DNA from: Aggregicoccus sp. 17bor-14
Lineage (GTDB): Bacteria; Myxococcota; Myxococcia; Myxococcales; Myxococcaceae
Reading direction: 5' to 3'
Assembly: GCF_009659535.1 (NCBI RefSeq)
Contig: NZ_VJZZ01000004.1
Location: 310,001 to 374,000, forward strand
DNA: 64,000 nt
Below, piece after piece: positions 13,629-38,890 of the stretch. Each line of letters starts with the position of its first letter. Position 1 is the stretch's first letter. A program made the translations under genes and the position numbers. The notes beneath the pieces are model-generated. The model ran no database searches. It saw only the letters and a program-made list of their open reading frames with translations, and had not been told where the DNA came from.

Positions 13629-15808
<2,180 letters not shown>

Positions 15809-21850: not shown

Positions 21851-21854
21851 GCGC

Positions 21855-23153
21855 CTAGCGACGGCCGATGCCGAAGTAGGTGAAGCCACGCTCGCGCATC
21901 TTCTCCGGATCGAAGACGTTGCGGCCGTCGAAGATGACCGGCTTGCGCATCAGGCTCTTGAGGCGGTCGAAGTCCGGGTGGCGGAACTCGTTCCACTCGG
22001 TGACCACGAAGAGGGCATCGGCCCCCTCGGCGGCGGCGTAGGGATTGGCCGCGTAGCGGATGCGGTCCCCGAAGCTGCGGTGGGCCACCTCCTGCGCCAC
22101 GGGGTCGTGCGCGGCCACCCGGGCGCCCTTGCCCAGCAGCCCCTCGATGATCTCGAGGGCCGGCGCCTCGCGCATGTCGTCCGTCTTGGGCTTGAACGCG
22201 AGCCCCCACACGCCCACCTGCAGCCCCGCGAGCGAGCCGAAGTGCTTCGTGGCCTTGGCCAGCAGCAGCCGCTTCTGGCGCTCGTTGGTGCGCTCCACCG
22301 CGCGCAGCAGATCGAACTCGATGCCGTAGTCGCGCGCGGTCGAGACCAGCGCCTTCACGTCCTTGGGGAAGCAGCTGCCGCCGTAGCCCACGCCCGGGAA
22401 GAGGAAGGGGTAGCCGATGCGCTTGTCCGAGCCCATGCCCTTGCGCACCAGGTCCACGTCCGCGCCCACCTTCTCGCAGAGCGCCGCGATGTCGTTCATG
22501 AACGAGATGCGGGTCGCGAGCATCGAGTTGGCCGCGTACTTGGTCAGCTCCGCCGAGGGCGGGTCCATGTAGAGGATGGGGTTCTCGGTGCGCACGAAGG
22601 GCGCGTAGAGCTCGCCCATGAGGGCGCGCGCGCGCTCGCTGTCCGAGCCGATGACCACGCGGTCCGGCTTCATGAAGTCCTCGAGCGCCGCCCCCTCCTT
22701 GAGGAACTCGGGGTTGGAGACCACGTCGAAGGGGTGCTTCGTCGTGCGCGCGAGCACGTCGCGCACCTTCTGGGCAGTGCCCACCGGCACGGTGCTCTTG
22801 TTCACCACGACCGTGTACTGGCCCATCGCCTTGCCGATCTGCTCGGCGGCGGCGAGGACGTACTGGAGGTCCGCATCCCCGTTCTCGCCCTCGGGCGTGC
22901 CCACGGCGATGAACACCACCTGCGAGCGCTTCACCGCCGCGGCGAGGTCCGTGGTGAAGGAGAGGCGGCCCTCGCGCGCGTTGCGCTCGACGAGCTCCTC
23001 GAGGCCCGGCTCGTAGATGGGCAGCTTGCCCTGCTTCAGGTTCTCGATCTTCTGCGGGTTGATGTCGACGCAGGTCACGTCGTTGCCCGAGTCCGCGAAG
23101 CAAGTGCCTGCGACCAGGCCGACGTAGCCGCTGCCGATGACGGAAATGTTCAT
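21855..23153 (-). CDS. ugd: UDP-glucose 6-dehydrogenase
   Basis: The 432-aa enzyme oxidises UDP-glucose to UDP-glucuronate with two NAD. The NAD-binding N-terminus MNISVIGSGYVGLVAGTCFA, the central STVPVGTA and NPEFLKEGAALEDFMKPDRVVIG, and the catalytic Cys near residue 260 in GVGYGGSCFPKDVKAL are all present, as is the C-terminal GLAFKPKTDDMREAPAL. It supplies uronic acid for the polysaccharide whose genes start divergently at 23409, and it heads a two-gene operon with the Wzi-like gene. A -10-like TATACA lies on the minus strand near 23187-23192. Confidence 0.96.
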   Translation of the reverse strand: MNISVIGSGYVGLVAGTCFADSGNDVTCVDINPQKIENLKQGKLPIYEPGLEELVERNAREGRLSFTTDLAAAVKRSQVVFIAVGTPEGENGDADLQYVLAAAEQIGKAMGQYTVVVNKSTVPVGTAQKVRDVLARTTKHPFDVVSNPEFLKEGAALEDFMKPDRVVIGSDSERARALMGELYAPFVRTENPILYMDPPSAELTKYAANSMLATRISFMNDIAALCEKVGADVDLVRKGMGSDKRIGYPFLFPGVGYGGSCFPKDVKALVSTARDYGIEFDLLRAVERTNERQKRLLLAKATKHFGSLAGLQVGVWGLAFKPKTDDMREAPALEIIEGLLGKGARVAAHDPVAQEVAHRSFGDRIRYAANPYAAAEGADALFVVTEWNEFRHPDFDRLKSLMRKPVIFDGRNVFDPEKMRERGFTYFGIGRR

Positions 23154-23250
23154 GGGGCGACGCTGGTACCGCATCCGCCGGGGTGCTGTATAGCCCGGGC
23201 AATCGAGCAAGCCCCGAATTGGCTCCCCGTGAAATCAGGTGGTTGCAGGT

Positions 23251-23380
23251 AACCGTTGCTGGGGAGGCAGGCAAGTCCCGATCAACGGTTCTTCCTTGAA
23301 CCTGGCGCCCGCCTGCGAGAGAACGCGCCGCCTGTTGCAGAGGCAACGATTTCGCGCCCGGGTGGTTTCTTGCGCCCGGG
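23251..23380. promoter_or_regulatory. Repeated symmetric elements in the ugd/wza divergent control region
   Basis: The 255-bp gap between divergent ugd and wza holds several symmetric sequences. AACCGTTG at 23251-23258 is matched by CAACGGTT at 23283-23290 (a perfect 8-bp inverted repeat). GTTGC-AGAG-GCAAC lies at 23334-23347. GCGCCCGGG occurs twice as direct repeats at 23354 and 23372, 18 bp apart. These look like protein-binding sites for regulators of the exopolysaccharide genes. No unambiguous -35/-10 pair was found for wza. Confidence 0.45.
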
Positions 23381-23408
23381 GTGCTGCAACTCGAGGGAGT
23401 CGGAGAAC

Positions 23409-24527
23409 GTGGCGAACCTGAAGTTCCTGCTGGGGGTGCTCCTGCTCTGCTCGAGCTGCGCGCTCGGCCCCGGCATGCGCATGGACGAGACGGCCTTGCG
23501 GGAGCGCACGCAGGACGAGCGCGAGGGGGCGGAGCCCAACGTCACGCTGGTGCCCATCACCCCTGCGGTGCTGGCCCAGCAGCTGCGCGAGCGCCAGCAG
23601 CAGCTCGTGCCCAACCCGGATCCGCTGGGCAACCTCGCAGCGACCTACGAGTACCACGTCGCCCCCCGCGACGTGCTCAGCGTCACCGTGTGGGACCATC
23701 CCGAGCTGACCATCCCGGCGGGCGAGTTCCGCCCTGCCGAGGCCACCGGGCACCCGGTGAATGCGGACGGCTCGCTCTTCTATCCCTACGTCGGCGTGGT
23801 GCAGGTGGCCGGCAAGACGCTGCCGGAGCTGCGCACGCTGCTCACCGAGCGGCTCGGAAAGGTGCTGCAGAAGCCGCAGCTGGACGTGAGGGTGGCCGCG
23901 TTCCGGGGCTACAAGGTCCAGGTCACCGGCGACGTGGTGGCTCCGAGCACCCTGCCCATCACGGACGTGCCGATGCGCGCCCTGGATGCGCTGGCGCAGG
24001 CGCGCGGGCCCACTCCCGAGGCGGACCTCTCCAACGTGGTGCTCTCGCGCGACGGGAAGACCTACACGCTCAACCTGCAGGCCACCAACGAGCAGGGCGC
24101 GACGTCGCAGAACTGGCTGCTCAAGGACGGGGACATCCTGTTCGTGCCGGACCGCAGCCGGAACAAGATCTTCGTGCTGGGCGAGGTGCGCCGTCCCTCC
24201 TCGCGCCTGATGGTGAAGGGGCGGATGTCACTGGCGGAGGCCATCGGGGACACCGAGGGCTTCGACCCCGTCACCTCCAACCCGGGCAAGGTCTACGTCA
24301 TCCGCGGCGACTTCCAGCGTCCCACCGTCTACAAGCTCGACGCCTCCTCGGCGGACGCCATGCTGCTCGCGGTGCAGTTCCAGCTGAAGCCGCACGACGT
24401 GGTGTACGTGTCGGCGCACAACCTCACACGTTGGAACCGCATCATCAGTCAGCTGCTGCCCACGGTGCAGCTGCTCTGGCAGTCGTTCGACCTGACCAAT
24501 CGGGCAGGGATCATCCCTACCCCCTGA
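23409..24527 (+). CDS. wza: Polysaccharide export outer membrane lipoprotein (Wza family)
   Basis: The GTG start at 23409 follows GGGAGTCGGAG. The 372-aa protein begins with a lipoprotein signal (LKFLLGVLLLCSSC). It then has the Poly_export domain (EYHVAPRDVLSVTVWDHPELTIPAGEFRP...) at about residues 80-190 and two SLBB domains (VQVTGDVVAPSTLPI and IFVLGEVRRPSSRLMVKG). Its C-terminus LLPTVQLLWQSFD is amphipathic, as in Wza, where it forms the outer membrane helical pore. It is the exit channel of the Wzx/Wzy pathway and is followed by the wzc gene. Confidence 0.93.
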   Translation: MANLKFLLGVLLLCSSCALGPGMRMDETALRERTQDEREGAEPNVTLVPITPAVLAQQLRERQQQLVPNPDPLGNLAATYEYHVAPRDVLSVTVWDHPELTIPAGEFRPAEATGHPVNADGSLFYPYVGVVQVAGKTLPELRTLLTERLGKVLQKPQLDVRVAAFRGYKVQVTGDVVAPSTLPITDVPMRALDALAQARGPTPEADLSNVVLSRDGKTYTLNLQATNEQGATSQNWLLKDGDILFVPDRSRNKIFVLGEVRRPSSRLMVKGRMSLAEAIGDTEGFDPVTSNPGKVYVIRGDFQRPTVYKLDASSADAMLLAVQFQLKPHDVVYVSAHNLTRWNRIISQLLPTVQLLWQSFDLTNRAGIIPTP

Positions 24528-24614: not shown

Positions 24615-26897
24615 ATGAGCCCATCCCCCGCGAAGTCGCCCAGAGTGTCTCAGCCCGGAGCCGACGCGCCGCTGCACGCGGTGCCGCGCGGGCGCGCGCC
24701 CGAGCCCGACGACGACGATCTCGATCTCGGGCAGCTCATCGGGACGCTCTACGACGGCCGCTGGCTCATCGCCGCCGCTGCGCTCGTGCTCAGCGCGCTT
24801 GGGCTCTTCTACGCGTTCACCGCGACGCCCGTGTACCGCGCGGACGCGCTCGTGCAGGTGGAGGAGAAGGGCGCAGGGCTGGACGACCTCAAAGACCTCA
24901 CCGCGATGTTCACCGGTGAGGCGCCCGCAGAGACCGAGGTGGAGATCCTCCGCTCGCGCTCCATCGTCGCCACCGTGGTGGACGAGCTGCGACTCGACGT
25001 GATCGCGGAGCCCCGCTACTTCCCGCTCGTGGGCCGGGCGATTGCGCGGCACCACAAGCAGCTGCAACTGGCCTCGCCGGTGCTCGGCCTCTCCCGCTTC
25101 GCGTGGGGCGGTGAGCGCATCCAGGTGAAGCGCCTGAAGCTGCCGAAGCTCCTGGAGGACGAGAAGCTCAAGCTCGTGGCCGGCGAGGGCGGCGCGTACG
25201 AGCTGTTCGGTCCAGACGGGGAGCTCTTGCTCAAGGGCCAGGTGGGGAAGCTCGCTGCTTCGTCGGTGGAGCAGGTCGCGGGTGACGGCAGCGCAGAGGT
25301 GGAGGCCTTCATCTCCGAGCTGGTGGCGCGCCCCGGTACCGAGTTCCGTCTGGTGAAGAAGCCCTGGGCCGAAGCCGTGGAGGACTTCCAGGAGGACCTG
25401 CGCGTCAGCGAGAAGACCAAGAACACGGGCATCATCGAGCTCGCGCTCGAGGGCAAGAGCGAGGAGCAGATCACGACCGCGCTGGACCACGTGATGGCGG
25501 TCTACGTGAAGCAGAACGTGGACCGGAAGTCCGAGACGGCCGAGAAGACGCTGGAGTTCATCAACTCGCAGCTCCCCTTGCTCAAGAGCAACCTCGACAC
25601 GGCAGAGGCCAACCTCAACGCCTACCGCTCCAAGCGCGGCACCGTGGACCTCAACCTCGAGGCCCAGGCCATCGTCGATCAGACCGTGGAGTCCGAGAAG
25701 CAGCTCACGGCGCTGGAGCTCCAACGTGCGGAGCTTCGGCAGCGCTTTACGGACAGCCACCCCGCGCTGGTCGCGCTCAAGAAGCAGATCGAGCAGCTGC
25801 GCGGCCAGCAAGCAAAGGTCAACGATCGCATCAAGGGCATGCCGGAGGCGGAGCTGCAGTCCGTGCGGCTCCTGCGAGACGTGAAGGTGGCCAACGAGCT
25901 GTACCTGCTCCTGCAGAACAAGGCCCAGGAGCTGAACGTCGTGAAGTCCGGCACCATCGGCAACGTACGGGTGCTCGACCACGCCAGCATCCAGTCGAAG
26001 CCGGTGAGCCCGAAGAAGGTGCTGATCCTCGCAGGCAGTCTCTTTGTGGGCCTCGCCTTCGGCGTCGCGCTCACCTTCCTGCGCAAGGCGCTGCGCCAGG
26101 GCGTCGAAGACCCCGAGCTTCTCGAGCAGACGCTCGGCATCTCGGTGTACGCGAGCCTGCCGCATAGCCCGCGGCAGGAGGAGCTGGTGCGCGCCCAGCA
26201 GCGGGGGGCCACGGACGTAAAGCCGCTGGCGGTGGTGGAGCCCTCGGACCTTGCGATCGAAAGCCTGCGCAGCCTGCGCACGAGCCTTCAGTTCGCGCTC
26301 GCCGAGGGCGACAACAACACGATCGTGATCGGTGGCCCCCGGCCGGGCGTCGGCAAGTCCTTCGTGTCGGTGAACCTCGCGCACGTGCTGGCCGACGCGG
26401 GCCGGCGGGTGCTCCTCGTCGATGCCGACATGCGCAAGGGACTGCTCCACCGCTACTTCGGCGGCAGCCGCGACTCGGGGCTCTCAGAGCTCATCCGAGG
26501 GGCTGTGAACATGGCGACCGCGGTGCGCAGCACTCCTACGCCCAACGTGTCGTTCCTACCGACCGGCACCCTCCCACCGAACCCCTCGGAGCTTCTCGCG
26601 AGCGAGCGTTTCAAGGATCTGCTCGGGAGGCTCCAGGCCGACTTCGATGTCGTGCTCATCGACGCGCCCCCCATCCTCGCCGTCACGGATGCCGCCATCC
26701 TCGCCCGCTTCGCAGGCGTGAACCTGATGGTCATCCGATCGGGCCTGCATCCGATGCGCGAACTGACGGCAGCGGTGAGCCGCATGGAGCAGAACGGAAC
26801 CCGGCCTCAGGGCTTCGTCTTCAACGACGTGCCAGTCCGCCCCGAGGGGTACGGGTTGGGCCGGTACGGGTATCACTACCAGTACGAGTACCGCTAA
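24615..26897 (+). CDS. wzc: Polysaccharide co-polymerase and BY-type tyrosine autokinase (Wzc family)
   Basis: This 760-aa inner membrane protein has TM1 at about 50-68, a long periplasmic Wzz domain with coiled coils (about 70-465) and TM2 at about 468-490 (VLILAGSLFVGLAFGVALTF). A cytoplasmic BY-kinase follows with Walker A GGPRPGVGKSF near 573, Walker A' LLVDADMRKG near 603 and Walker B VLIDAPPI near 680. The C-terminal tail (YGLGRYGYHYQYEYR) is the tyrosine cluster that is autophosphorylated to control chain length and export. A cognate phosphatase gene (wzb) is at 38890. Unlike many myxobacterial loci, where the kinase is a separate Wze protein, kinase and membrane parts are fused here. 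Confidence 0.95.
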   Translation: MSPSPAKSPRVSQPGADAPLHAVPRGRAPEPDDDDLDLGQLIGTLYDGRWLIAAAALVLSALGLFYAFTATPVYRADALVQVEEKGAGLDDLKDLTAMFTGEAPAETEVEILRSRSIVATVVDELRLDVIAEPRYFPLVGRAIARHHKQLQLASPVLGLSRFAWGGERIQVKRLKLPKLLEDEKLKLVAGEGGAYELFGPDGELLLKGQVGKLAASSVEQVAGDGSAEVEAFISELVARPGTEFRLVKKPWAEAVEDFQEDLRVSEKTKNTGIIELALEGKSEEQITTALDHVMAVYVKQNVDRKSETAEKTLEFINSQLPLLKSNLDTAEANLNAYRSKRGTVDLNLEAQAIVDQTVESEKQLTALELQRAELRQRFTDSHPALVALKKQIEQLRGQQAKVNDRIKGMPEAELQSVRLLRDVKVANELYLLLQNKAQELNVVKSGTIGNVRVLDHASIQSKPVSPKKVLILAGSLFVGLAFGVALTFLRKALRQGVEDPELLEQTLGISVYASLPHSPRQEELVRAQQRGATDVKPLAVVEPSDLAIESLRSLRTSLQFALAEGDNNTIVIGGPRPGVGKSFVSVNLAHVLADAGRRVLLVDADMRKGLLHRYFGGSRDSGLSELIRGAVNMATAVRSTPTPNVSFLPTGTLPPNPSELLASERFKDLLGRLQADFDVVLIDAPPILAVTDAAILARFAGVNLMVIRSGLHPMRELTAAVSRMEQNGTRPQGFVFNDVPVRPEGYGLGRYGYHYQYEYR

Positions 26898-27102: not shown

Positions 27103-27203
27103 CGCCGGTCGCCATTCGTTGCAGCACGGACGATCTGCCAGTCCGGGGCATTCCACTCTGGGTGCCGCCGCAGCTGGCTCCGCCGTCGCTCGGGGGTCAT
27201 GTC

Positions 27204-28589
27204 GTGAGCCGTATCAGCCGTTCCTTTGGTCTCCTCGCCGCGTTGATTGACGCGTTCCTGCTCGTGAGCGCCTTCGCGCTGGCGTTCCAGCTGCGCGAGC
27301 AGCTCAGTGGCTTCCCTCTCCTGGGTAACCTGCAGCCCCACGTGCTGATGGTCCCGGTGGCGGTGTCCGTGTGGGGATTCGCCGGATACTGGTCGGGGCT
27401 CTACTCCGGGCGCCGGCTGTCGCTCTGGCGTGAGGCGAAGCACCTCGTCCGCCTGACCCTCTACACGGGCCTGGTCCTCGCATCGCTCGCGTTCCTCCTC
27501 AAGCTGGAGCAGAGCCGTCCCCTCATCGTCCTCTACGTGCTGAGCGCGCTCTGCCAGACGCTCGCCTTCCGCCTCCTCCAACGCATCTTCGGCTGGGGTC
27601 AGCCGAAGGAAGCGCACCGGGTGATCGTGGTGGGCAGCGGCGCCCAGGCGGAAGCGATCTGCCGCATGCTGCGCACCCGCTCCGAGCACGGCGCGGAGCT
27701 GGTCGGGCTGGTCACGGAGGAGCACGACACTCCGGTGCCGCCGGGCGTTCGCCGCCTCGGCATCCTCGCCGACAGCGAGGCCATCTTCCGTCGCGAGATC
27801 GTGGACGAGGTCATCTTCGCGGTCCCCCGCACGGCGCTGTTCGAGGTGCAGAGCGCCTTCCAGGCCGCCGAGGACCTGGGGCTCGACACGCGCCTGTGCC
27901 TCACCTTCCTCCCGAATCGCTTCGCGCGGGTGGGATTCTCGGAGCTCGACGGGGTGCCGTCGCTCTCCTTCACGTCTGCGCCGGGCAAGCCGCTCGAGCT
28001 CGTGCTCAAGCGCGCCTTCGACATCATCGTGAGCCTCACGGCGCTCGTGCTGCTAGCGCCCGTCTTCGGGGCGATCGCGGTGGCCATCAAGCTCACCTCG
28101 AAGGGCCCCGTCTTCTTCAGCCAGAGCCGCACGGGCCTCAACGGGCGCGAGTTCCGCCTGTGGAAGTTCCGCTCGATGGTGGTCGATGCAGAGGCGCGCC
28201 TGAAGGAGCTGGCGAGCCAGAACGAGATGAGCGGGCCCGTCTTCAAGATCGACCGCGACCCGCGCATCACGGGCATCGGTCACTTCATCCGCAGGACCTC
28301 CCTGGACGAGCTGCCTCAGTTCTGGAACGTCCTCATCGGAGACATGAGCGTGGTCGGCCCCCGCCCGCTCTTCGACGTAAAGCAGTACGACGAGCGCTGG
28401 CAGTGCCGACGCCTGTCCGTGAAGCCGGGCATCACCTGCACCTGGCAGATCAGCGGCCGCAACCAGATCGACTTCGCGACTTGGATGAAGCTGGACCTCG
28501 CCTACATCGATCAGTGGTCGCTGGGGCTCGATCTCAAAATCTTCCTCAAGACGATCCCCGCGGTCCTGCTGGGCAAGGGAGCGCGCTGA
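27204..28589 (+). CDS. Undecaprenyl-phosphate sugar phosphotransferase (initiating polyprenyl glycosylphosphotransferase)
   Basis: The GTG start at 27204 follows CGGGGGT and gives 461 aa. The N-terminal half has four or five membrane helices and a Rossmann-like CoA-binding-type domain (HRVIVVGSGAQAEAICRML). The C-terminal Bac_transf domain has KRAFDIIVSLTALVLLAPVF, then FKIDRDPRITGIGHFIRRTSLDELPQFWNVLIGDMSVVGPRP, the signature of WbaP/ExoE-type enzymes. It transfers a sugar-1-phosphate to undecaprenyl phosphate and so begins each repeat unit of the polysaccharide. The first sugar (Glc, Gal or GalNAc) cannot be deduced. An in-frame ATG at 27162 is a possible but poorer start. Confidence 0.92.
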   Translation: MSRISRSFGLLAALIDAFLLVSAFALAFQLREQLSGFPLLGNLQPHVLMVPVAVSVWGFAGYWSGLYSGRRLSLWREAKHLVRLTLYTGLVLASLAFLLKLEQSRPLIVLYVLSALCQTLAFRLLQRIFGWGQPKEAHRVIVVGSGAQAEAICRMLRTRSEHGAELVGLVTEEHDTPVPPGVRRLGILADSEAIFRREIVDEVIFAVPRTALFEVQSAFQAAEDLGLDTRLCLTFLPNRFARVGFSELDGVPSLSFTSAPGKPLELVLKRAFDIIVSLTALVLLAPVFGAIAVAIKLTSKGPVFFSQSRTGLNGREFRLWKFRSMVVDAEARLKELASQNEMSGPVFKIDRDPRITGIGHFIRRTSLDELPQFWNVLIGDMSVVGPRPLFDVKQYDERWQCRRLSVKPGITCTWQISGRNQIDFATWMKLDLAYIDQWSLGLDLKIFLKTIPAVLLGKGAR

Positions 28590-28759: not shown

Positions 28760-30028
28760 ATGTTTCGTTGGGGTTCAGACGGCCTGGCGCGCAATACCCT
28801 CTGGGCCCTCGCCGGCCAGGGCAGTCGTGTGCTTGTCCAGGGCGCCTACTTCGTGCTCGTTGCCCGGCTCCTCGGAGCCGACGGCTACGGCGCCTTCGCA
28901 GCAGCCACCGCCCTCTTTTCCATCTTCGCGCCCTTCGCCAATTTCGGGGCGGGCAACCTGCTGATCAAGCGGGTTGCGACCGCTCCGGATGACTTCTCTG
29001 CTGCCTGGGGCAGCGCGCTCTCGACCACCGCCACCTACGGGACTGCGCTGACGGTCGCGGTGGCGATCGTGGCTCGCCTCGTCCTTCCGGTCACCGTCCC
29101 CACGTCGCTCATCTTGGCAGTCGCCATCTCCGACCTCCTGTTCGCGCGGATCGCGGAACTCACCAGCCAGGCCTTCCAGGGCGTGGAGCGCATGGGGCGC
29201 ACGGTCTACCTGCAGGTGCTGCTGAACGTGGCGCGACTGATCGGGATCGGCACTCTCGGGATGGTGGTCCGAAGCCCCACCCCGAGCCTCTGGGGTTGGT
29301 TCTACCTCGCTGGTGCCGTGGCCACGGCGGCCTACGGACTGCTCGTCGTGAAACGAGAGCTGGGGCGAGCCCGGTTCGCGGGTCTGGCAGGTTGGAGCGA
29401 GCTGCGGGAGGGCCTCTACTTCTCGACCATCATCTCCGCGCACACGATCAACAACGACATCGACAAGACGCTGCTTGCGCGCTTCTCCACGCTCGACGCA
29501 ACGGGCATCTACGCTTCGGCATACCGCATCATGGACGTCGCGTTCACCCCGATTAGGTCGTTGCTGTACTCGTCGTATGCGCGCTTCTTCAAGCACGGTG
29601 CGGATGGGCTGGCCGGGACGCTCGCGTTCGTGAAGCGACTGCTCCCGGTGGCTTTGGCCGTGAGCGTCGGAATCTTCTGTGCCCTCCTGGTTGGAAGCCC
29701 GCTCATCCCGCACATCCTCGGCCCGCAGTTCGCCACCACGGCGATCACCGTGCGCTGGCTCGCCATCATCCCGGTGTTCAAGACCCTCCATCACCTCGCC
29801 GGTGATGCGCTGTCGGGTGCTGGCTACCAGGGACGCCGAAGCTTCGTTCAGGTCTTGGTTGCCGGGGCAAACGTGGCCTTGAACCTGGTCCTCATCCCGC
29901 GCTTCTCGTGGAAGGGTGCGCTGGTGACGAGCATCATCTGCGATGGGCTGCTGGCCTGTGCGCTGTGGGCCGTCGTCTGGGCGACCCGCCGTCAGACCAA
30001 GGAAGAGCTCCGTCCATGCCCGGCCTAG
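28760..30028 (+). CDS. wzx: Lipid-linked repeat-unit flippase (Wzx family)
   Basis: This 422-aa polytopic membrane protein has about 12 to 14 helices of the MATE/MOP polysaccharide exporter type. It begins NTLWALAGQGSRVLVQGAYFVLVARLLGADGYGAFAAA, a typical Wzx opening, and contains GAGNLLIKRVA and IDKTLLARFSTLDATGIYASAYRI. It moves the undecaprenyl-linked repeat across the inner membrane. Its 3' end overlaps the start of the AsnB-like gene by 13 bp, so translation of the two is coupled. Confidence 0.92.
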   Translation: MFRWGSDGLARNTLWALAGQGSRVLVQGAYFVLVARLLGADGYGAFAAATALFSIFAPFANFGAGNLLIKRVATAPDDFSAAWGSALSTTATYGTALTVAVAIVARLVLPVTVPTSLILAVAISDLLFARIAELTSQAFQGVERMGRTVYLQVLLNVARLIGIGTLGMVVRSPTPSLWGWFYLAGAVATAAYGLLVVKRELGRARFAGLAGWSELREGLYFSTIISAHTINNDIDKTLLARFSTLDATGIYASAYRIMDVAFTPIRSLLYSSYARFFKHGADGLAGTLAFVKRLLPVALAVSVGIFCALLVGSPLIPHILGPQFATTAITVRWLAIIPVFKTLHHLAGDALSGAGYQGRRSFVQVLVAGANVALNLVLIPRFSWKGALVTSIICDGLLACALWAVVWATRRQTKEELRPCPA

Positions 30029-31719
30029 TGGGTTTTGCACAGCGGGATCCTGCGCCGAATGACGAGCTCGTCCTCGGACGCATGCAGGATCTGGTTGCCC
30101 ACCTTCCGCACCACGTTAAGGAAGCCGGCTTCCTCACACCGGCGCTCGCTGTGGCGCGGGTCCACACCGGAGCGATCCAGCTCGAACGCCAGCCGCGGAC
30201 GGTGAGCCACGTCAGGGTCTGGCTGGATGGTGAGCTCTACAACCAGGTGGAGCTGCGCCGCTCGCTCAAGAAGCCTCTGGCTGAGTCAGAGCAAAGCGAT
30301 GCCGATCTTCTCGGCGCCCTGTATCTCGCGGACCCCACCTTCGCCTTCTTGAAGCGGATCGATGGGATCTACGCGGCGGTCCTGCACAATCTCCGCAGTG
30401 GCGCGACCCACCTCGTCACAGATCGCTACGGCCTGCGCCAGCTCTACTGGACGCGGCAGGGGGAGCGGCTCGCCTTCGCGTCCGAGCCCAAAGCCCTCCT
30501 CGCGATTCCCGAGTTCACGCCCCGCATCGACCCGGAGTCGGTCGAGCAGTTCCTGAGAGAGGGGTTCCTGCTGGGAGAGCGCACCTGGTTCTCCGGCGTC
30601 ACGCTGCTCAGGGCAGGCTCGTTCCTGTCATGGGGCCCGGGCATGCAGGAGCCGAGCATCTCCCGGTACTGGGGCTGGGACGACATCCGCCCACTCGGCG
30701 AGGTGCAGACCGAGGATGAGGTCGCCGAAGAGTTGGGAAGTCGCTTCCGTGCTGCCGTTGCCCGGCACTCCCTCCACGAGGGGGGAGTGGGGGTGAGCCT
30801 GAGTGGAGGGCTGGACTCGCGCGCACTCCTGGCTGCGGTCCCCGCAGGTCGCAGCGTGCACACCGTCACCTTCGGTACGCGAGGTTGTGCCGACGACCTC
30901 ATCGCCCGACGAGTCGCGCAGGCCAGGGGCAGCACCCACCACTTCGTCGAGCTGACATCGAAGAACTGGCTCGAGCACCGCCTGGAAGGCGTCTGGTGGA
31001 CCGACGGACAGGCGGATCTGCTCCACATGCATGCGCTGGTCTCCGCGCAGGAGCAGCGCAGCCATTACGCGGTCAACCTCAACGGGTTCCTCGGGGACGC
31101 CGTCCTCGGGGGCTCATACCTCGGTGACAAGCGCTGGACGCTGCCCGAGAAGATCGACCAGCGCGGACGCCGCCTGATCAACGAGGGCACGCGGCTCACG
31201 AACAACTACTTCCACAACCGCCTTCCGTTCTTCGACAACCGGTTGATGGAGCTAGCGTATGCCCTCCCTCGGCCGCTGCTCTCGAACTCCCGGGTCTATC
31301 GGCGGATGCTTCTACGCCACTTCCCCGAGTATTTTCGCTCCATCCCCTGGCAGAACACCGGACTGCCCATTGGCTGGCCCGGGGTCGTCACCCGTCCCTT
31401 GCGCTTCGTCGGGCGCGTTCGGGGCCGCCTCCGTCGGGAACTGGGCCGCATCACGGGGCAGCAGGTGAGTCTGCAGGCCTACACGGACTATCCCACGTGG
31501 ATCCGGCAGGCCCCTGCGCGCGAGCTCTTCGAGCGCCTCTTGGCCCACCCCGAGGCGCTCCACGCGCAGTACGTCTCGGCGGACACGGTTCGCGCTCGCC
31601 TTGCAGCACACTTTGGCGGGGAGGACCACTCCGAGTACCTGTGTCGCGTCGCCACGCTCGAAGTCTGGCTGCAGCAGGTCTATGCCGGCCGATACCGTAA
31701 CGGAAGGCTCGACGCATGA
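30016..31719 (+). CDS. Asparagine-synthase-like amidotransferase lacking the catalytic Cys
   Basis: The 567-aa protein looks like an AsnB-family enzyme: a class II amidotransferase-like domain (residues about 1-190) and a synthase domain with the PP-loop SLSGGLDSRALLAA (SGGLDS at 263-268). The N-terminus is MPGLVGFAQRD; the Cys2 nucleophile of glutaminase domains (MCGI) is replaced by Pro, so glutamine hydrolysis should be lost. An ATP-dependent amide-forming reaction with free ammonia, or another ligase reaction, remains possible. It overlaps wzx by 13 bp and wzy by 4 bp, so it belongs to the polysaccharide pathway. WbpS-type homologues amidate uronic acids in O-antigens, and Ugd here would provide uronic acid. 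I infer, but cannot prove, that role. Confidence 0.85.
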   Translation: MPGLVGFAQRDPAPNDELVLGRMQDLVAHLPHHVKEAGFLTPALAVARVHTGAIQLERQPRTVSHVRVWLDGELYNQVELRRSLKKPLAESEQSDADLLGALYLADPTFAFLKRIDGIYAAVLHNLRSGATHLVTDRYGLRQLYWTRQGERLAFASEPKALLAIPEFTPRIDPESVEQFLREGFLLGERTWFSGVTLLRAGSFLSWGPGMQEPSISRYWGWDDIRPLGEVQTEDEVAEELGSRFRAAVARHSLHEGGVGVSLSGGLDSRALLAAVPAGRSVHTVTFGTRGCADDLIARRVAQARGSTHHFVELTSKNWLEHRLEGVWWTDGQADLLHMHALVSAQEQRSHYAVNLNGFLGDAVLGGSYLGDKRWTLPEKIDQRGRRLINEGTRLTNNYFHNRLPFFDNRLMELAYALPRPLLSNSRVYRRMLLRHFPEYFRSIPWQNTGLPIGWPGVVTRPLRFVGRVRGRLRRELGRITGQQVSLQAYTDYPTWIRQAPARELFERLLAHPEALHAQYVSADTVRARLAAHFGGEDHSEYLCRVATLEVWLQQVYAGRYRNGRLDA

Positions 31720-33044
31720 GGCAGTCTTGGTCCCCACCACACGCCCTGGCCTACGCGCGCGCGCCGCGCTCGACAGCCAGAAGCCTGCTGCGGCGGGCCG
31801 AGCATCTCTTCGTCGTGCTCGTGCTCGTGCTGCTGGGAGAGGCGCTCATCCCGCTCCTCAAGCAGGGTGGATCCTCGCAGGGCAGCGAGGGAGATCCGGT
31901 CCAGATGATGCTCTGGCTCGGCATCTACGGCGTGACCGCCACGTTCGTGGTCCTGCGTTGGCGCACCGTTCGCCGGGGCTTCAGGCGGGGGAAGGCGGTG
32001 CTGGGGCTGACGCTGCTGTCCATTGGCTCGGCGGCCTGGTCTCTCGATGGCTCCTTCACGTTCCGCAAGGCGCTGATCCTCGCGGGGACCACCTTCTTCG
32101 GTGCCTACCTCGCGGGACGCTTCAACGGGAGGGAGCTGCTGCAGCGGCTCTCAGAGGCCCTCGTGCTGAGCCTGCTGCTCAGCGTGGTGTTCGCGCTGTT
32201 CTTGCCCAGCTATGGCATCGACAGGGAGCTGCATGAAGGCGCCTGGCAGGGCGTTTATGCGCAGAAGAACATCCTGGGGCGCATCAGCGTGCTTGCCGCA
32301 TTCACGCTGGCCATCCAGGGGGCCGCGGGCCGCGCGCGTTGGCGCTGGCGAGCCTGCGCGGCGCTCGCGCTGGTGGTGCTCGTGCTCTCGCGGTCGATGA
32401 CCTCGCTGTCGATGGCCGTGTTCCTCGTCCTTCTCACGCCTCTGTACAAGTGCCTCCGCTGGAGGCTGAGCGTACTCGTCCCGGTCCTCGTCCTGAGTGT
32501 CGTCCTCTTGGCCTCTGCCCTGTTGGCACTCGCCATCAACTTCGAGCTGGTGCTCGGAGGAATGGGGCGCGACCTCTCGCTCACCGGCCGTACGGCCATC
32601 TGGCCCTCTGTCTGGGAAGCCATTCAGTTGAGGCCCTGGCTGGGATACGGCTACGGCGCGTTCTGGGCGGGGTTCGGAGGGGCGGTCGATGCCGTCCGCG
32701 AGGCCTCGGGCTGGGAGGTGCGGCACTCACACAACGGGTTCCTCGAGCTCTGGCTCGACGTGGGAGCCGTGGGCCTCGCGCTCTTCGTAGCGGGCCTCCT
32801 GTCGACATTCGTCGACGCGGCGCGGGTAGCGCGCCACGAGCGCTCCGCACAAGGACTGTGGCCCCTGCTGTTCCTGTCTTTCCTGGTCGCGTACAACCTG
32901 ACCGAGACACTGTTTCTGCGACAGAACAACCTGTTCTGGGTTCTCTATGTCGCCGTCTCCTTGGGGGTCGCCGGGCGGAGGAATCGCTGGGTGGAGGCCC
33001 CGCGATTCAACCCGATGCCGCAGCCAGGAGCAGAGCCGCTGTGA
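31716..33044 (+). CDS. wzy: O-antigen ligase/polymerase family protein (Wzy)
   Basis: This 442-aa membrane protein has about 11 helices and the Wzy_C region: a helix pair before and after a loop with GMGRDLSLTGRTAIWPSVWEAI and WLGYGYGAFW..., then HSHNGFLELWLDVGAVGL. The RTxxW and GHGFG-like parts are typical of Wzy/WaaL proteins. In this operon, next to wzx and wzc, it is the polymerase that joins repeat units in the periplasm. The ATG overlaps the upstream stop by four bases, and the stop overlaps the next GTG by four bases. Confidence 0.9.
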   Translation: MRQSWSPPHALAYARAPRSTARSLLRRAEHLFVVLVLVLLGEALIPLLKQGGSSQGSEGDPVQMMLWLGIYGVTATFVVLRWRTVRRGFRRGKAVLGLTLLSIGSAAWSLDGSFTFRKALILAGTTFFGAYLAGRFNGRELLQRLSEALVLSLLLSVVFALFLPSYGIDRELHEGAWQGVYAQKNILGRISVLAAFTLAIQGAAGRARWRWRACAALALVVLVLSRSMTSLSMAVFLVLLTPLYKCLRWRLSVLVPVLVLSVVLLASALLALAINFELVLGGMGRDLSLTGRTAIWPSVWEAIQLRPWLGYGYGAFWAGFGGAVDAVREASGWEVRHSHNGFLELWLDVGAVGLALFVAGLLSTFVDAARVARHERSAQGLWPLLFLSFLVAYNLTETLFLRQNNLFWVLYVAVSLGVAGRRNRWVEAPRFNPMPQPGAEPL

Positions 33045-34195
33045 CCACCCGAGGCAGCACCAGCACGCTGGCGCCGAGGGTGCTGATCTACCGCGACCGC
33101 CTGCTGCCCCCGTCGGAGACGTTCATTCTCCAGCAGGCCGAGGCGCTGCGGCGCTTCACCCCCGTCTATCTCGGGGCCCAGGCCGTGCGGGGGCTCCCGA
33201 CTCCGGCAGAGCGCACCTTCGTGGTCCACCCGCGAGACGAGCGCAGCCTGGCCGGCGTTGCCTTCAGGCTTGTGGGAACCGCCCCCAGGCTATTCCGCGC
33301 GCTCGAGCGCCTTCAGCCCCAGCTCGTGCACGCCCACTTCGGCCCCGACGGGGTTCAAGCGCTGGGCGTAGCCCGTCGGCTCCGTTGCCCCCTCGTCGTC
33401 ACCTTCCACGGCTACGACGTCACGGTTCGCGATGAGTACCTCCAGCAGAGCTACACCCAGCGCAGGTTCCTCCGGTGCAAGTTCCAGCTCGGCGAGCGGG
33501 CAGGACTGCTCGTCGCGATCTCCCGATTCATCCGTTCGGCCATGATCGAGCGCGGCTTTCCGGAGAACAAAATCCGGGTGCACTACATCGGTGTGGACAC
33601 CGAGCGGTTCAAGGCTCGCTCTGGGCAGGAGCGAGAGCCGATCGTCCTGTTCGTCGGTCGATTGGTCGAGAAGAAGGGCTGTGGTCACCTGATTCGCGCG
33701 ATGGCGAGGGTCCAGGCCCGACTCCCGGCTGTAGAGCTCGTGGTCATTGGAGACGGACCCTTGCGGCAGGAGTTGGAGGCCCAGGCCCGTACGCTCGGCC
33801 TGCGGCATCGCTTTCTGGGCGTCCAGGCTCCTGAGAATGTCCAGGCATGGTTGGAGCGCGCGCGCGTATTCAGCGTGCCGAGCATCGTCGGCAGCTCGGG
33901 GGATGCCGAGGGGCTCGGCATCGTCTTCCTCGAGGCCCAGGCGATGGGTGTGCCCGTCGTAAGCTTCGATACAGGAGGGATCTCGGAGGCGGTCAAGCAC
34001 GAGCGGACTGGACTGCTGGCCCCTGCCCACGACGACGAGCTCCTTGCGGAGTACCTCTGCCGGCTGCTCCAGGACGACGCGATGTGGCGTGCGTTCTCGG
34101 TTGCAGGCAGGCAGCACGTCACCGGGAATTTCGACCTCGCGACGCAGACGCGCCAGCTCGAAGAGCTCTACCTTGAAGTGCTCGACAGGGCATGA
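33041..34195 (+). CDS. Glycosyltransferase family 4
   Basis: The GTG at 33041 overlaps the wzy stop (GTGA) and follows CCAGGAGC. The 384-aa GT-B enzyme has VHAHFGPDGVQALGVARRL and TFHGYDVT in its N-terminal domain, and VLFVGRLVEKKGCGHLIRAMA, VVIGDGPLRQELE, and the donor-binding SSGDAEGLGIVFLEAQAMGVPVVSFDTGGISEAV (GT4 E-x7-E motif) in the C-terminal domain. Its opening (RVLIYRDRLLPPSETFILQQAEALRRF) resembles colanic acid WcaL-type enzymes. It adds one sugar of the repeat on the cytoplasmic face of the membrane. Confidence 0.92.
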   Translation: MTTRGSTSTLAPRVLIYRDRLLPPSETFILQQAEALRRFTPVYLGAQAVRGLPTPAERTFVVHPRDERSLAGVAFRLVGTAPRLFRALERLQPQLVHAHFGPDGVQALGVARRLRCPLVVTFHGYDVTVRDEYLQQSYTQRRFLRCKFQLGERAGLLVAISRFIRSAMIERGFPENKIRVHYIGVDTERFKARSGQEREPIVLFVGRLVEKKGCGHLIRAMARVQARLPAVELVVIGDGPLRQELEAQARTLGLRHRFLGVQAPENVQAWLERARVFSVPSIVGSSGDAEGLGIVFLEAQAMGVPVVSFDTGGISEAVKHERTGLLAPAHDDELLAEYLCRLLQDDAMWRAFSVAGRQHVTGNFDLATQTRQLEELYLEVLDRA

Positions 34196-34287: not shown

Positions 34288-35253
34288 ATGCGCTCTCCCT
34301 CTCTGGTCTCGGTCGTGATTCCGACCCGCAACCGCCACAGCCTCGTCGTGAGGGCCGTGCAGAGTGTGCTGGCCCAGAGCCACCCGGCGGTGGAGGCCAT
34401 CGTCGTCGTGGACGGCCCCGATTCGGCAACGCAGCAGGCCCTGGGGCAAATCGAGGATCCCCGGCTGCGTACGAAGGTGCTCGACCAGTCCGTAGGCGGG
34501 GCTCAGGCGCGCAACGCGGGCGTGGACATGGCACAGGGTGAGTGGATCGCGTTCCTGGACGACGACGACGAGTGGATGCCGACGAAGCTGGAGCGGCAGC
34601 TGCTGCTCGCGTCCCAGATGGATTGCAGAAGGCCGGTCGTTTCCTGCCAGGTGATTGCCCGCAGCCCCACCGGCGACCAAGTCTGGCCTCGTCGCAAGCC
34701 GGAGCCGGGAGAGCCCATCAGCGAGTACCTGCTCGCGCGCCGCAGCTTCACGCAAGGCGAGGGACTGCTTCAGACATCCACCCTGCTGATTCCCCGCGTG
34801 CTGCTTCAGAAGGTGCCGTTCCGCGTGGGTCTGCGCAGGCATCAAGATTGGGACTGGATGTTGCGCGCGGCACGAGAGCCAGGCGTCGGGATCGACCTGG
34901 TCATGGAGCCGCTCGCGATCTGGCACATCGAGGAGCGACGGGCGACCGTCAGCCAGGGCAGCAACTGGAAGTACTCGCTCGAGTGGATCTCGAACAACCG
35001 CGAGCTCGTCACGCCGTGGGCATTTGCCGCGTTCGTCCTCACCCAGGTCGGATCCTTTGCCGCTCGTGAGCGGGCTTGGTCGTCGTTCTGGTCGCTCCTG
35101 CGGACAGCCTCCAAGCACGGATCCCCGCGGCCCATCGACCTCGCGCTCTACCTCACCTGGTGGGTGGCGCCACAGCCACTCCGTCGGTCGCTGCGGGATG
35201 CCGCGCTCCGCCTCAAGGAACGCGCCCTTCCCTCCCGCCCTCGTCGGTCGTGA
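34288..35253 (+). CDS. Glycosyltransferase family 2
   Basis: This is a 321-aa GT-A enzyme. It has SVVIPTRNRHSLVVRAVQSVL, VDGPDSATQQAL, GGAQARNAGVDMAQGEWIAFLDDDDEW (DDD metal/nucleotide site) and a later RHQDWDWMLR (ED-type base region). No membrane span was seen. A 92-bp gap separates it from the GT4 gene, the largest break within the glycosyltransferase run, so the reading may depend on the same message or a weak promoter there. It probably adds a sugar to the repeat unit; the donor is unknown. Confidence 0.9.
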   Translation: MRSPSLVSVVIPTRNRHSLVVRAVQSVLAQSHPAVEAIVVVDGPDSATQQALGQIEDPRLRTKVLDQSVGGAQARNAGVDMAQGEWIAFLDDDDEWMPTKLERQLLLASQMDCRRPVVSCQVIARSPTGDQVWPRRKPEPGEPISEYLLARRSFTQGEGLLQTSTLLIPRVLLQKVPFRVGLRRHQDWDWMLRAAREPGVGIDLVMEPLAIWHIEERRATVSQGSNWKYSLEWISNNRELVTPWAFAAFVLTQVGSFAARERAWSSFWSLLRTASKHGSPRPIDLALYLTWWVAPQPLRRSLRDAALRLKERALPSRPRRS

Positions 35254-35262: not shown

Positions 35263-36270
35263 ATGCCACAGCTCACCATCGGTCTGCCTGTCTTCAACGC
35301 GATGCCGTACCTGGCCGAGACGGTTCGGAGCCTGCTCGGCCAGTCGTTCCGGGATTTCGAACTGCTTGCCATCGACGATGGATCCACCGACGGCAGTGGT
35401 GAGTTCCTGTCCAAGATCGAAGACCCGAGGATTCGGCTCATCCGCCAACCGAACCGTGGCCTCACGGGCACGCTGAATCGGATGCTCGAGGAGGCACGCA
35501 CTCCCTGGCTCGTTCGCCACGACGCAGACGACGTGGCCTACCCGCAGCGGCTTCAGCGCATCATGGAAGCGATCACGTCCCGGCCGGACTCCGGGATGTT
35601 CTATTCGCCGGCGGACTACACCGGCGCGGGGAGGAGCCTCGGAACCTTCCGCACTTCGCGCGGCAGCCCCGCGCAGCTCACGCTGGCAACCCGGGCGGGC
35701 TACCTGCTTGCGATCTGCCACCCCACGGTAACCCTGAATGTGAAGAAGACGGTGGCGCTGGGCGGGTATCGGTTCGACCTGCACATCGAGGACATCGATC
35801 TGTGGTGGCGGATGGCGCTCCGTCACGAGATCACGCTGATTCCCGAGCCCACAGTCGGCTTCCGCCTCAACACCGGAAGCGTGAGCAGCAGCAACCTGGA
35901 GAGGCAGGAACGGAACATGCTCTTCGTGCAGCACCTGCTGCTCTCCCACCTGTGGCAGCTGTCACCGTCGACGCTCGAGCAGGCGGCGCCGGCGCTCGAC
36001 CGCCTGATGGATCCGAAGAAGCTTCTTTTCCGTCGCCATCTGCGGGCGGCGGGAATGGCGATGGGCGAGCGCGCCTATGGGAAGGCGCTCCTGAACGGCG
36101 GGCTCGCGGCCGTGAAGACGCCCACCTATCTGCTCAAGCGGCTCGCCTACGGACGAGGTGAGGACGCGTCAATGGCCGTCAATGGCGTGTCTCCCCTCGA
36201 GTTCGCGGCCATCTCGGAGAAGCTCTGGCCGAGCCGGGGAGCGTCGGCCATGCCGGAGGCACGGCGATGA
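35263..36270 (+). CDS. Glycosyltransferase family 2
   Basis: The 335-aa protein starts MPQLTIGLPVFNAMPYLAETVRSLLGQSF and has the GT-A motifs IDDGSTDGSGEFL, NRMLEEARTPWLVRHDADDVA (DxD) and LHIEDIDLWWRMAL. It begins 10 bp after the preceding GT2 gene and its stop overlaps the next start by four bases. It has similar organisation to CpsI/WcaA-type transferases and no membrane segment. The sugar it transfers is not known. Confidence 0.91.
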   Translation: MPQLTIGLPVFNAMPYLAETVRSLLGQSFRDFELLAIDDGSTDGSGEFLSKIEDPRIRLIRQPNRGLTGTLNRMLEEARTPWLVRHDADDVAYPQRLQRIMEAITSRPDSGMFYSPADYTGAGRSLGTFRTSRGSPAQLTLATRAGYLLAICHPTVTLNVKKTVALGGYRFDLHIEDIDLWWRMALRHEITLIPEPTVGFRLNTGSVSSSNLERQERNMLFVQHLLLSHLWQLSPSTLEQAAPALDRLMDPKKLLFRRHLRAAGMAMGERAYGKALLNGGLAAVKTPTYLLKRLAYGRGEDASMAVNGVSPLEFAAISEKLWPSRGASAMPEARR

Positions 36271-37100
36271 GCAACGTGACCATCGATGTCGCCGGCGTGC
36301 GGGTTCAGGCGCTCGAGCGAGGGCACCTCCTGGCGTTGCCCGCGCTGCTGTCAGATGTGCGGGGACAAATCGTGGTGGGTCATCACAACCTGCACAGCAT
36401 CTACCTCTTCCACCGGGATCCCGCGATGCGCGCCTTCTACGAGACAGCGCGCCTCGTTCACATCGACGGAATGCCCCTCGTCTGGATGGGGAAGGTGGCG
36501 GGCTATCCCGTCGGGCGCCAACACCGACACACGAGCCTCGACTGGATTGTGCCGTTCTTGCGGCAATGCGCGGAGCACCGACGCAGCGTGTTCTTCGTAG
36601 GCTCTAAGCCTGGGGTCGCCGAGCGCGCCGTTGAAGCGTTCCGCGCGGACGTGCCAGACCTTGTCGCGCACACCCATCACGGCTACTTCGATGACAGCGT
36701 GGACTCGGCCGAGAGCGCCGAGCTGATCCGCCTGATCAACGCCTCGGGAGCCGACGTGCTGCTGGTCGGAATGGGGATGCCACGCCAGGAGCGATGGGTC
36801 GCCCAGAATGCCCACCGGATCAACACCAAGTTGATCTGGACCCTCGGCGCCTTCATGGACTACTTCGCCGGCGAGATTTCCACGCCGCCTCGTTGGATGG
36901 GGGCCCTCGGGCTGGAGTGGCTCGGAAGGCTTCTCGCCGAGCCCAAGCGCCTCGGCAGCCGCTACCTGGTCGAGCCTTGGTCCGTGCTCGCCCACTTCGC
37001 TGCGGGGATGGTGCGCACGGAGCGGTCAGCCGCGGCCGCGCGCAGCGCGACCGACGAGGCGCTGGTGGCGCAGCTCGCGCAATACACGCGGACGCCGTAG
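36267..37100 (+). CDS. WecG/TagA/CpsF-family glycosyltransferase (GT26)
   Basis: The 277-aa protein has the family features: IVVGHHNLHSIYLFHRDPAMRAFYETARLVHIDGMPLVWMGK (acceptor site with the conserved Asp), RRSVFFVGSKPGVAE, DVLLVGMGMPRQERWVAQNA and GAFMDYFAGEISTPPRWMGALGLEWLGRLLAEPKRLGSRYL. GT26 enzymes commonly add ManNAc or its uronic acid form to an undecaprenyl-linked sugar, which fits the presence of ugd, but the donor is not proven. It is the last gene of the rightward run and converges with the GH10 gene 23 bp away. Confidence 0.93.
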   Translation: MSNVTIDVAGVRVQALERGHLLALPALLSDVRGQIVVGHHNLHSIYLFHRDPAMRAFYETARLVHIDGMPLVWMGKVAGYPVGRQHRHTSLDWIVPFLRQCAEHRRSVFFVGSKPGVAERAVEAFRADVPDLVAHTHHGYFDDSVDSAESAELIRLINASGADVLLVGMGMPRQERWVAQNAHRINTKLIWTLGAFMDYFAGEISTPPRWMGALGLEWLGRLLAEPKRLGSRYLVEPWSVLAHFAAGMVRTERSAAAARSATDEALVAQLAQYTRTP

Positions 37101-37123: not shown

Positions 37124-38890
37124 TCAGAGGCGGAACTCGAAGGTTCCGTCCTTGCCCGGCTCGAGGGTTACGACCCTTCGCTCTCGCGCACGTCCGTGGA
37201 CGACGACGAGCTCGTGCGTGCCGTAGAAGACGCGCATTCGAGCGACCCCGTCCGCCGCAGTGCTTCGGTGTTCGCGGCTCCACCATGCGCCCAGCACGAG
37301 CTGCTCGTAGGCATCCTGGGCTGGCCGCTTCGACCAGTCCCTCCGGAACATCGCGCCCCCCTTCGTGGCCAGCCAATGCTGACCTTCCCAGAACCCCCAG
37401 AGCGTGAAGCCCTGGAGCGCGGGGTGGCTGAAGGCAGCCGTCAGGAAGTCGCGCACGTAGGACGCGTGCAGCAGATCATCCTCGACAGCCACGTCGAACT
37501 CGGTGACTTCGAGCGGGCGTTGGAAGGAGGCGAGCCCGTCCCATATGGACAGCACGCTTCGAATGGGCGTCAACGGCAGGGACATGTGTGCCTGGTCGCC
37601 AATCACGTCCAGCGGCGCGCCTGAAGCGATGAGCGCGCGAACCCGCTCGGTAGCCACCGCAAGCGGCCGCTCCCCAAGGCTCTGGTTCGCGAGGTTGGCC
37701 TCGTTGTAACAGAGCTGTGCTGCCGGGTCGGCGCGGCGTGCGATTCGAAAGGTCTCCGGGAACAGGGACCACCCCAGGTCCTCCCAGAGCTCCGTGCTTC
37801 CCACCGCCTCGTTCACGACATCCCAGATGTAGACCTGGCCCTTCATGGCGGCGACGGCCCCCTGGACTCGCTGCTCCACGCGCTGCCGGCCCTGCTCCTT
37901 GCTCAGGCCCCTGACGCCTGGACTGTGCGCGTAGTCCCCCCACACGAGGGTATGTCCCCTGATGTCGAACCCCCGTTTTCTGGCCCAGGCTACGGCCTGC
38001 TGCACCTCTGCGAGCTGGGCGGGGCTCGCACGCTCCCATTTCATCTCGTTCTCGAACACGATCGTGTTGAAGAGCCGCTCGATCTCGGCGCGATAGCGCA
38101 CGCTGTCCGGGTCGGAGCCGAGGAGCCTGCGGGCGACAACGGCCGTGCCGAAGTGGAAGCGGTGCCGCAGCTGCTTCAGTTCGACGGAAGCGCCTGGAAC
38201 CGGCTTCCCACGACGGTCCAGAACACGCACGTTCAGCTCGCCCTTGCGAATCCTCTCGATCCGGGAGAGCGCCGCGGGCCGCCAGTCCCCCGGGTTCGCC
38301 TCGCCTCCGAAGGGGTCCACGTTCTCGCGCGGGACGGGGTGGGGATCTCGGGAGTAGTTCTCCAGCCGCACAGTGGCGATCTCGGCCGTGCCACGATCGA
38401 GACCGAGCTGAATGTTGAGCTGAGCGTCTCCTTTGGCAAATGCCCGGGAGGCTTTCAGGACGAGCGTGTACTCCTTCCACTCGGGAGACAGCCTCAGCAG
38501 GCGCCGTAGCTCCTTCCGGTAGGGTTCCTTCGAGTCCTCCATGACCACTAAGACCCGAACGCGATCCTGACTCCGCATCCAGGCGCGGAAGACGATGACG
38601 TCTTTCTCCTCGATCGAGCCTTGTAGGAGCTGGCGGATGCCCCACGCCCAGGTGGGATCATCCGGCGCTGGGGCGCTTCGGAGAAGCAGCGAAGAGCCGG
38701 TGGGGCTGTCGCTGCGGTCTCCGAAGTTCGAGGAGACGCGGCGGTAGCGCCACGGGGACAGGAGCGTGGCGTGGAAATCACCATCGGCGATGAGCTCGAC
38801 AGGCTGCTGTCGCTCCGCCGCGTGGGAGTCGAGTGCAACGAGCAGTGCGAGCACTCTTCCCAGCGCGACTACAGCGCGCGGTAGCTTCAT
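37124..38890 (-). CDS. Secreted GH10 glycoside hydrolase (endo-beta-1,4-xylanase family) with N-terminal carbohydrate-binding domain
   Basis: From ATG 38890 the protein has 588 residues. A signal peptide covers about 1-24 (VVALGRVLALLVALDSHA). Residues about 30-190 form a beta-sandwich like a CBM4/9 module. Residues about 215-540 are a GH10 TIM barrel with WDVVNEA (acid/base Glu361) and LEVTEFDVA (nucleophile Glu464), plus HTLVWG and LWGFWEG. GH10 enzymes cut internal beta-1,4 bonds, classically of xylan. Here the gene shares one base with the upstream wzb phosphatase gene, so the enzyme probably works on the polysaccharide made by this locus rather than on plant xylan. That is inference. Confidence 0.9.
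   Translation of the reverse strand: MKLPRAVVALGRVLALLVALDSHAAERQQPVELIADGDFHATLLSPWRYRRVSSNFGDRSDSPTGSSLLLRSAPAPDDPTWAWGIRQLLQGSIEEKDVIVFRAWMRSQDRVRVLVVMEDSKEPYRKELRRLLRLSPEWKEYTLVLKASRAFAKGDAQLNIQLGLDRGTAEIATVRLENYSRDPHPVPRENVDPFGGEANPGDWRPAALSRIERIRKGELNVRVLDRRGKPVPGASVELKQLRHRFHFGTAVVARRLLGSDPDSVRYRAEIERLFNTIVFENEMKWERASPAQLAEVQQAVAWARKRGFDIRGHTLVWGDYAHSPGVRGLSKEQGRQRVEQRVQGAVAAMKGQVYIWDVVNEAVGSTELWEDLGWSLFPETFRIARRADPAAQLCYNEANLANQSLGERPLAVATERVRALIASGAPLDVIGDQAHMSLPLTPIRSVLSIWDGLASFQRPLEVTEFDVAVEDDLLHASYVRDFLTAAFSHPALQGFTLWGFWEGQHWLATKGGAMFRRDWSKRPAQDAYEQLVLGAWWSREHRSTAADGVARMRVFYGTHELVVVHGRARERRVVTLEPGKDGTFEFRL

Follow-up and report, generated by a model that had tools for sequence, protein, structure and literature searches.

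The locus analyzed here raises a simple question: What can an asparagine synthetase-like protein do in a polysaccharide operon, if it lacks the cysteine which allows its relatives to use glutamine? The gene is found in Aggregicoccus sp. 17bor-14, in a stretch of 64,000 nucleotides (contig NZ_VJZZ01000004.1, positions 310,001 to 374,000) which we call the window. Its features are collected in Table 1. An earlier note on this DNA suggested that the protein amidates a uronic acid, with free ammonia or another nitrogen donor replacing glutamine, or that it has a different ligase chemistry. In our analysis the last of these alternatives survives best.

Table 1. Features of the polysaccharide locus and of the AsnB-like gene. 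Positions are those of the window.
Feature	Position	Strand	Evidence
Wzi-type capsule assembly protein	20372-21889	-	PF14052 1.5e-29
Ugd, UDP-glucose 6-dehydrogenase	21858-23210	-	PF03721/PF00984/PF03720; TuaD is the best model over the full length, with a score under its cut-off
Wza-type export protein	23256-24527 (putative start)	+	PF02563, PF22461, PF18412
Wzc-type co-polymerase / tyrosine kinase	24615-26897	+	PF23607, PF02706, PF13807
Polyprenyl glycosylphosphotransferase, initiating transferase	27162-28589 (putative start)	+	TIGR03025 2.2e-121, above cut-off
wzx flippase	28760-30028	+	PF01943 6.3e-22
Cys-less AsnB-like protein, 567 aa, GATase_7 + Asn_synthase	30016-31719	+	PF00733 2.7e-21, PF13537 7.1e-19
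MPGL N-terminus in place of MCG(I/L)	30016-30027	+	Alignment with E. coli AsnB and 17 MCG controls; Shine-Dalgarno, codon bias
PP-loop SGGLDSR, residues 263-269; the Arg following SGGLDS marks the clade	30802-30822	+	Motif tables, alignment
NGFLGDA, residues 356-362, for SGEGSDE of AsnB: Glu348 to Phe, Glu352 to Ala, Asp351 kept	31081-31101	+	Alignment
WQNTGLP, residues 445-451, opposite the AsnB RxKxGF motif carrying Lys449; without Lys	31348-31368	+	Alignment
wzy-type polymerase / O-antigen ligase family	31716-33044	+	PF04932 4.3e-19
Family 4 glycosyltransferase	33044-34195 (putative start)	+	PF00534 1.6e-38
Family 2 glycosyltransferase	34288-35253	+	PF00535 1.3e-26
Family 2 glycosyltransferase	35263-36270	+	PF00535 1.4e-26
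WecG/TagA/CpsF glycosyltransferase	36267-37100	+	PF03808 3.9e-53; TIGR00696 above cut-off

The gene and its start codon

The protein begins with MPGLVGF (codons ATG CCC GGC CTA for the first four residues), and in the alignment with E. coli AsnB, whose reference sequence was checked against 1CT9, Pro2 occupies the column of Cys1 of the mature enzyme. The replacement of MCGI by MPGL described in the earlier note is therefore confirmed, unless translation starts at an upstream codon which provides an MCG-type N-terminus. We have found no MCG-like start within the 70-residue open frame upstream of 30016. A Shine-Dalgarno sequence, AGGAAG, lies about 10 nt 5' of this start. The CG content by codon position is coding-like from 30016 on (0.71/0.46/0.83), as opposed to the in-frame extension 29908-30015 (0.83/0.64/0.56, not coding-like). 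Two orthologues of Anaeromyxobacter-type genomes (L002 and L035) have a stop codon five codons 5' of their VPGIFGF start, so that a longer N-terminus is impossible in both. Codon bias, the position of the Shine-Dalgarno sequence and this nearby stop exclude an upstream MCG start, and the start at 30016 stands.

The only cysteines in the protein are residues 291 and 543. Besides the N-terminal cysteine, the glutaminase site has lost HRGPD and Asn74, both here and in the clade described below, and the glutaminase is predicted to be inactive, as suspected. The SGGLDS loop is intact (residues 263-268, 30802-30819). Judging from its residues, the protein is an AsnB relative which is no longer able to use glutamine.

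An AlphaFold2 model obtained with a 29-row alignment has a pLDDT of 88.3 and a pTM of 0.89; an earlier model from nine close relatives was poor (pLDDT 58.5). VIA-align aligns the whole chain of the model with TsnB9 (Z 38.4), AsnB (36.7) and BLS (34.7), with an rmsd of 3.4 over 458 residues for AsnB. The predicted fold is the AsnB-type one with two domains, Ntn and N-type ATP-pyrophosphatase (Z 30-38 over 441-486 residues for TsnB9, AsnB, BLS and ASNS).

Loss of the cysteine in related proteins

A single-sequence scan of genome contigs found no relative of the window protein. An alignment-based scan detected full-length homologues in Latescibacterota MAGs and in one MAG labelled Gemmatimonadota; in the phylum Latescibacterota, 15 of 64 genomes have a match of 1e-45 or better. 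A profile search of 195 Myxococcota genomes gave strong matches (E < 1e-230) in just four, including the genome of the window, and the next best match was 1e-43. The other three are Anaeromyxobacter-type genomes, whose proteins all start with VPGI(F/Y)GF. The Latescibacterota-type homologues start with MLAGF, MIAGF, MPGLAGF, LPGLIGV or LPGLLGI, with a cysteine in none of them. All the Latescibacterota and Anaeromyxobacter homologues (L050-L059, L080-L083) are full-length, with 30-40% identity, and none has Cys2. More distant relatives are found among haloarchaeal proteins annotated as "asparagine synthase-related", which mostly start with MVG, MTG or MPG. The SGG(L/I/S)DSR loop is present in 10 of the 11 haloarchaeal proteins examined; a simple motif scan did not detect it in L093. 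The homologue search also gave two weak phage matches.

The earlier note asked whether the loss of Cys2 is a clade feature, and the answer is clear: Cys2 is absent from every member of the clade and kept in 39/39 other AsnB homologues fetched from related genomes. The loss is therefore not an accident of one genome. Conservation is not uniform along the protein: The ATP core (residues 233-366) of the window protein is 34-51% identical to that of the Latescibacterota proteins, as against 19-30% for residues 1-60. Bacterial and haloarchaeal members of the clade share about 26% identity in the ATP core.

In a maximum-likelihood tree, a branch with 100/100 support separates 18 Cys-less SGG-x-DSR rows from AsnB, XrtA amidotransferase, N-acetylglutaminylglutamine amidotransferase, BLS and the MCG controls. 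The window protein, with no Cys2 and an SGG-x-DSR loop, is on this branch, as are the three haloarchaeal members sampled, although the root of the tree is a midpoint one, the branches of BLS and Natronococcus are long, and the haloarchaeal rows are only weakly placed inside the branch. The window protein groups with Latescibacterota and not with Anaeromyxobacter (100/99), which fits horizontal transfer of the gene. Such a transfer is also suggested by its closeness to the Latescibacterota proteins (up to 41% identity) and its rarity in its own phylum (4/195). A plasmid of Gloeothece verrucosa (L086) carries two AsnB-like genes, 8542-10242 (+) and 12842-14572 (-), with no N-terminal Cys. They have SGGLDSS loops and branch outside the clade, so we have not considered them as members.

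Taken by its sequences, the clade is an old, uncharacterised branch common to bacteria and haloarchaea, in which the ligase site is altered as well. We have found no study of these proteins in the literature searched, whose coverage was partial, so that a characterised member could be missed. The same literature assigns no function to the haloarchaeal "asparagine synthase-related protein".

The synthetase site

The changes are not limited to the glutaminase. Glu352 and Tyr357 of AsnB, which are invariant in 17/17 Cys-type controls, are Ala and Ser in the window protein, and the clade as a whole has lost the pair. The position of Glu348 is occupied by Phe358; this position also varies among the Cys-type controls (D, T, Q, L), so that its change is weak evidence and the loss of Glu352/Tyr357 is stronger. 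The motif which carries Lys449 in AsnB contains no lysine here; we limit the claim to the motif, since the column itself depends on the alignment (Asn447 or Trp445). Other members of the clade have Lys, Arg, Thr, Ala, Ser or Tyr at the corresponding position, and Lys or Arg before TG is kept in many of them.

Some of these positions have been studied in other enzymes. The E364A, E364Q and D367A mutants of human ASNS are inactive with ammonia, and Lys-466 has been called essential in AS-B (PMC6748925). Going by the motifs, their counterparts in the window protein would be Phe, Asp and a motif without Lys. A Glu-Tyr pair is important in PesC (PMC13060819), and a pair of this type is absent from the window protein. 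In view of these changes in the synthetase site, the picture drawn in the earlier note, where the synthetase is intact and nothing but the glutaminase has been lost, is too simple.

On the other hand, bacteria and archaea alike have retained the SGG-x-DSR loop, and nine clade sequences share a set of invariant residues: N356, G357, D361, D381, R383, R385, PF-D-N 404-408 and TG-P 448-451. A remodelled synthetase site, in a clade-wide Cys-less variant of a known superfamily, is what appears to be new in these sequences.

Genomic context

The AsnB-like gene was said to lie in a Wzx/Wzy polysaccharide operon and to be overlapped by both genes, which is correct. The end of wzx (30028) overlaps it by 13 nt and the start of wzy (31716) by 4 nt, and the operon also contains Wza, Wzc, the initiating transferase and four glycosyltransferases. 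Ugd is indeed encoded in the window, as stated in the earlier note, but about 7 kb upstream of the AsnB-like gene; it adjoins the Wzi gene and is divergent from the operon, in a separate transcription unit. A GH10 glycoside hydrolase gene, 37124-38893 (-) (PF00331 1e-44), is convergent at the end of the operon.

The context of the relatives is frequently, not universally, that of polysaccharide genes. In Anaeromyxobacter the homologue is flanked by glycosyltransferase genes, and the stretch around it also encodes a DegT aminotransferase, an acyltransferase and a flippase. Seven of the 11 haloarchaeal loci are in polysaccharide clusters, several of them adjoining a flippase gene; the other four are not. 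In the eight Latescibacterota-type loci we have read (L050-L057), the AsnB-like gene is transcribed divergently from a conserved set of genes (L051:2621-11695 and the matching parts of L050 and L052-L057), which codes for DUF362, a HetI-like phosphopantetheinyl transferase, two ABC exporters and DUF1854. The two ABC exporters and DUF1854 resemble "cyanophycin metabolism-associated" families, with scores under the respective cut-offs. No Ugd gene was seen next to the homologues of Anaeromyxobacter or Latescibacterota, so that supply of a uronate is not a conserved partner of the gene.

Possible functions

The observations to be explained are the loss of the glutaminase residues, the intact PP-loop, the predicted fold, the membership in the clade and the position in the operon. 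The best explanation we can offer, which we hold tentatively and at somewhat less than even probability, is an ATP-dependent, AMP-forming carboxylate ligase which acts in glycan assembly and uses a nucleophile other than glutamine. The N-terminal Ntn domain would be structural only, and the synthetase domain, with its PP-loop, would probably still adenylate a carboxylate. The site which accepts the nucleophile seems to have been rebuilt, and the activated acid would then be passed to something other than ammonia derived from glutamine. The most likely acceptor would be the amine, or perhaps the hydroxyl, of another building block. A glycan precursor or the lipid-linked repeat might be the substrate, and the reaction may take place between the transferase and the Wzx/Wzy steps. 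The loss of Cys2 in the whole clade, the SGG-x-DSR loop, the conserved ATP core, the confident model and the polysaccharide context are in favor of this ligase, and the alteration of the ligase site across the clade means that the partner which it joins to a carboxylate is probably not ammonia. Against it, catalytic residues of the characterised members are missing from the window protein, and the gene is outside polysaccharide operons in Latescibacterota and in four haloarchaeal loci.

The main rival, itself rather improbable, is a degenerate, non-catalytic protein which takes part in the machinery of glycan assembly as a scaffold or as a subunit sensing ATP. In favor of it, the glutaminase has been lost together with several synthetase residues, among them Glu352, Tyr357 and the Lys of the Lys449-type motif. 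However, the PP-loop and its extra Arg are kept across bacteria and archaea, the ATP core is more conserved than the N-terminus, and many members of the clade have Lys or Arg before TG. Conservation of loop and Arg at such a great distance, together with the ATP core and the invariant residues of the clade, makes us think that the protein is probably still an enzyme.

Synthesis of a uronamide by a WbpS-like enzyme, with free ammonia instead of glutamine, was the function preferred in the earlier note, and we consider it unlikely. Ugd is encoded 7 kb away, AsnB-type genes adjoining wzx are responsible for uronamides elsewhere in bacteria (P. gingivalis has no uronamide once PGN_1234, which lies downstream of wzx, is deleted; PMC7468200), and the AS-like enzyme PesC, which can use ammonia, provides a precedent (PMC13060819). 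Nevertheless, the score with TIGR03108, the family which holds WbpS and the relatives of PGN_1234 (PMC7468200), is 106 bits for a cut-off of 816.9, and the protein is on a branch apart from the XrtA amidotransferase. The Phe at the Glu348 position, the lost Glu352/Tyr357 pair and the relatives without a neighboring Ugd also disagree with this proposal. The ammonia might instead be channelled from a separate glutaminase protein. Such subunits exist in other ligases, GatD with MurT being an example (PMC3266927); but no glutaminase-type gene is found among those annotated around the AsnB-like gene, and the protein's own Ntn domain would occupy the place of the partner, so this arrangement is very improbable. 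Finally, the genome of the window (99.95% complete) has no AsnA and no canonical AsnB, as if the protein were an ammonia-dependent asparagine synthetase for the cell. This is not likely, indeed hardly credible: with GatB encoded in the genome, asparagine probably arises on tRNA by transamidation, the gene is in a polysaccharide operon and conserved residues of the synthetase site are lost. Other PF00733 matches in this genome resemble the LarE, QueC and MnmA types in their loop sequence.

The ligase reading may be extended to the whole clade. It would then be an unrecognised AsnB-derived class of ligases, found in bacteria and haloarchaea, which couples a glycan precursor, through its carboxylate, with a nucleophile different from ammonia, in a site unlike those of AsnB, BLS and lasso cyclases; we consider this speculative and rather improbable. 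In databases these proteins bear the name of asparagine synthetase, and an automatic reconstruction would take them for amidotransferases. As far as residues can tell, they should not be AsnB enzymes of the glutamine-dependent kind, nor of the standard ammonia-dependent kind. Provided that they are active, they would account for a carboxylate modification, so far unassigned, in bacterial and archaeal surface polysaccharides, and would illustrate the re-use of the AsnB fold.

Comparison with known families

AsnB (E. coli, 1CT9) and human ASNS share with the window protein the two-domain fold over the whole chain, the PP-loop and Asp351. The differences are the missing Cys1, HRGPD and Asn74, the changes of Glu348 to Phe, Glu352 to Ala and Tyr357 to Ser, and the Lys449 motif without Lys. 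The TIGR01536 score is 152 bits, below the cut-off of 267.1. Pro2 replaces the N-terminal Cys and Glu352/Tyr357 are absent, while the SGGxDS PP-loop is present. WbpS, WbqG, PGN_1234 and the XrtA amidotransferases are likewise encoded by AsnB-type genes which neighbor wzx in operons for surface glycans, but the XrtA example (L088) retains MCG and is on a separate branch. The lasso peptide cyclase model NF033535 gives 60.7 bits for a cut-off of 525.

Within the clade, haloarchaeal proteins such as E6P09_RS16775 of Haloferax mediterranei and WD430_RS22390 of Haloterrigena also lack Cys2, have the SGG-x-DSR loop and are often found in flippase/glycosyltransferase clusters. They differ in their ATP core (about 26% identity), and several have IPYERTG, whose Arg takes the place of the Asn of the window protein. 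The Latescibacterota proteins (L050-L057) differ in their neighborhood, made up of DUF362, PPTase, ABC exporter and DUF1854 genes instead of a polysaccharide operon.

BLS and CarA (1JGT, 1Q15) have the AsnB fold, a dead glutaminase and an aromatic residue at the Glu348 position, and BLS also lacks Glu352/Tyr357, like the window protein. In these characterised Cys-less enzymes of the AsnB family, the nucleophile is an amine other than the nitrogen of glutamine. Nevertheless, BLS is outside the clade in our tree. The Tyr at the Glu348 position, part of the Tyr-Glu dyad, and the catalytic Lys before (L/I)G of the beta-lactam and carbapenam synthetases are replaced in the window protein by Phe358 and by WQNTGLP, which has no Lys.
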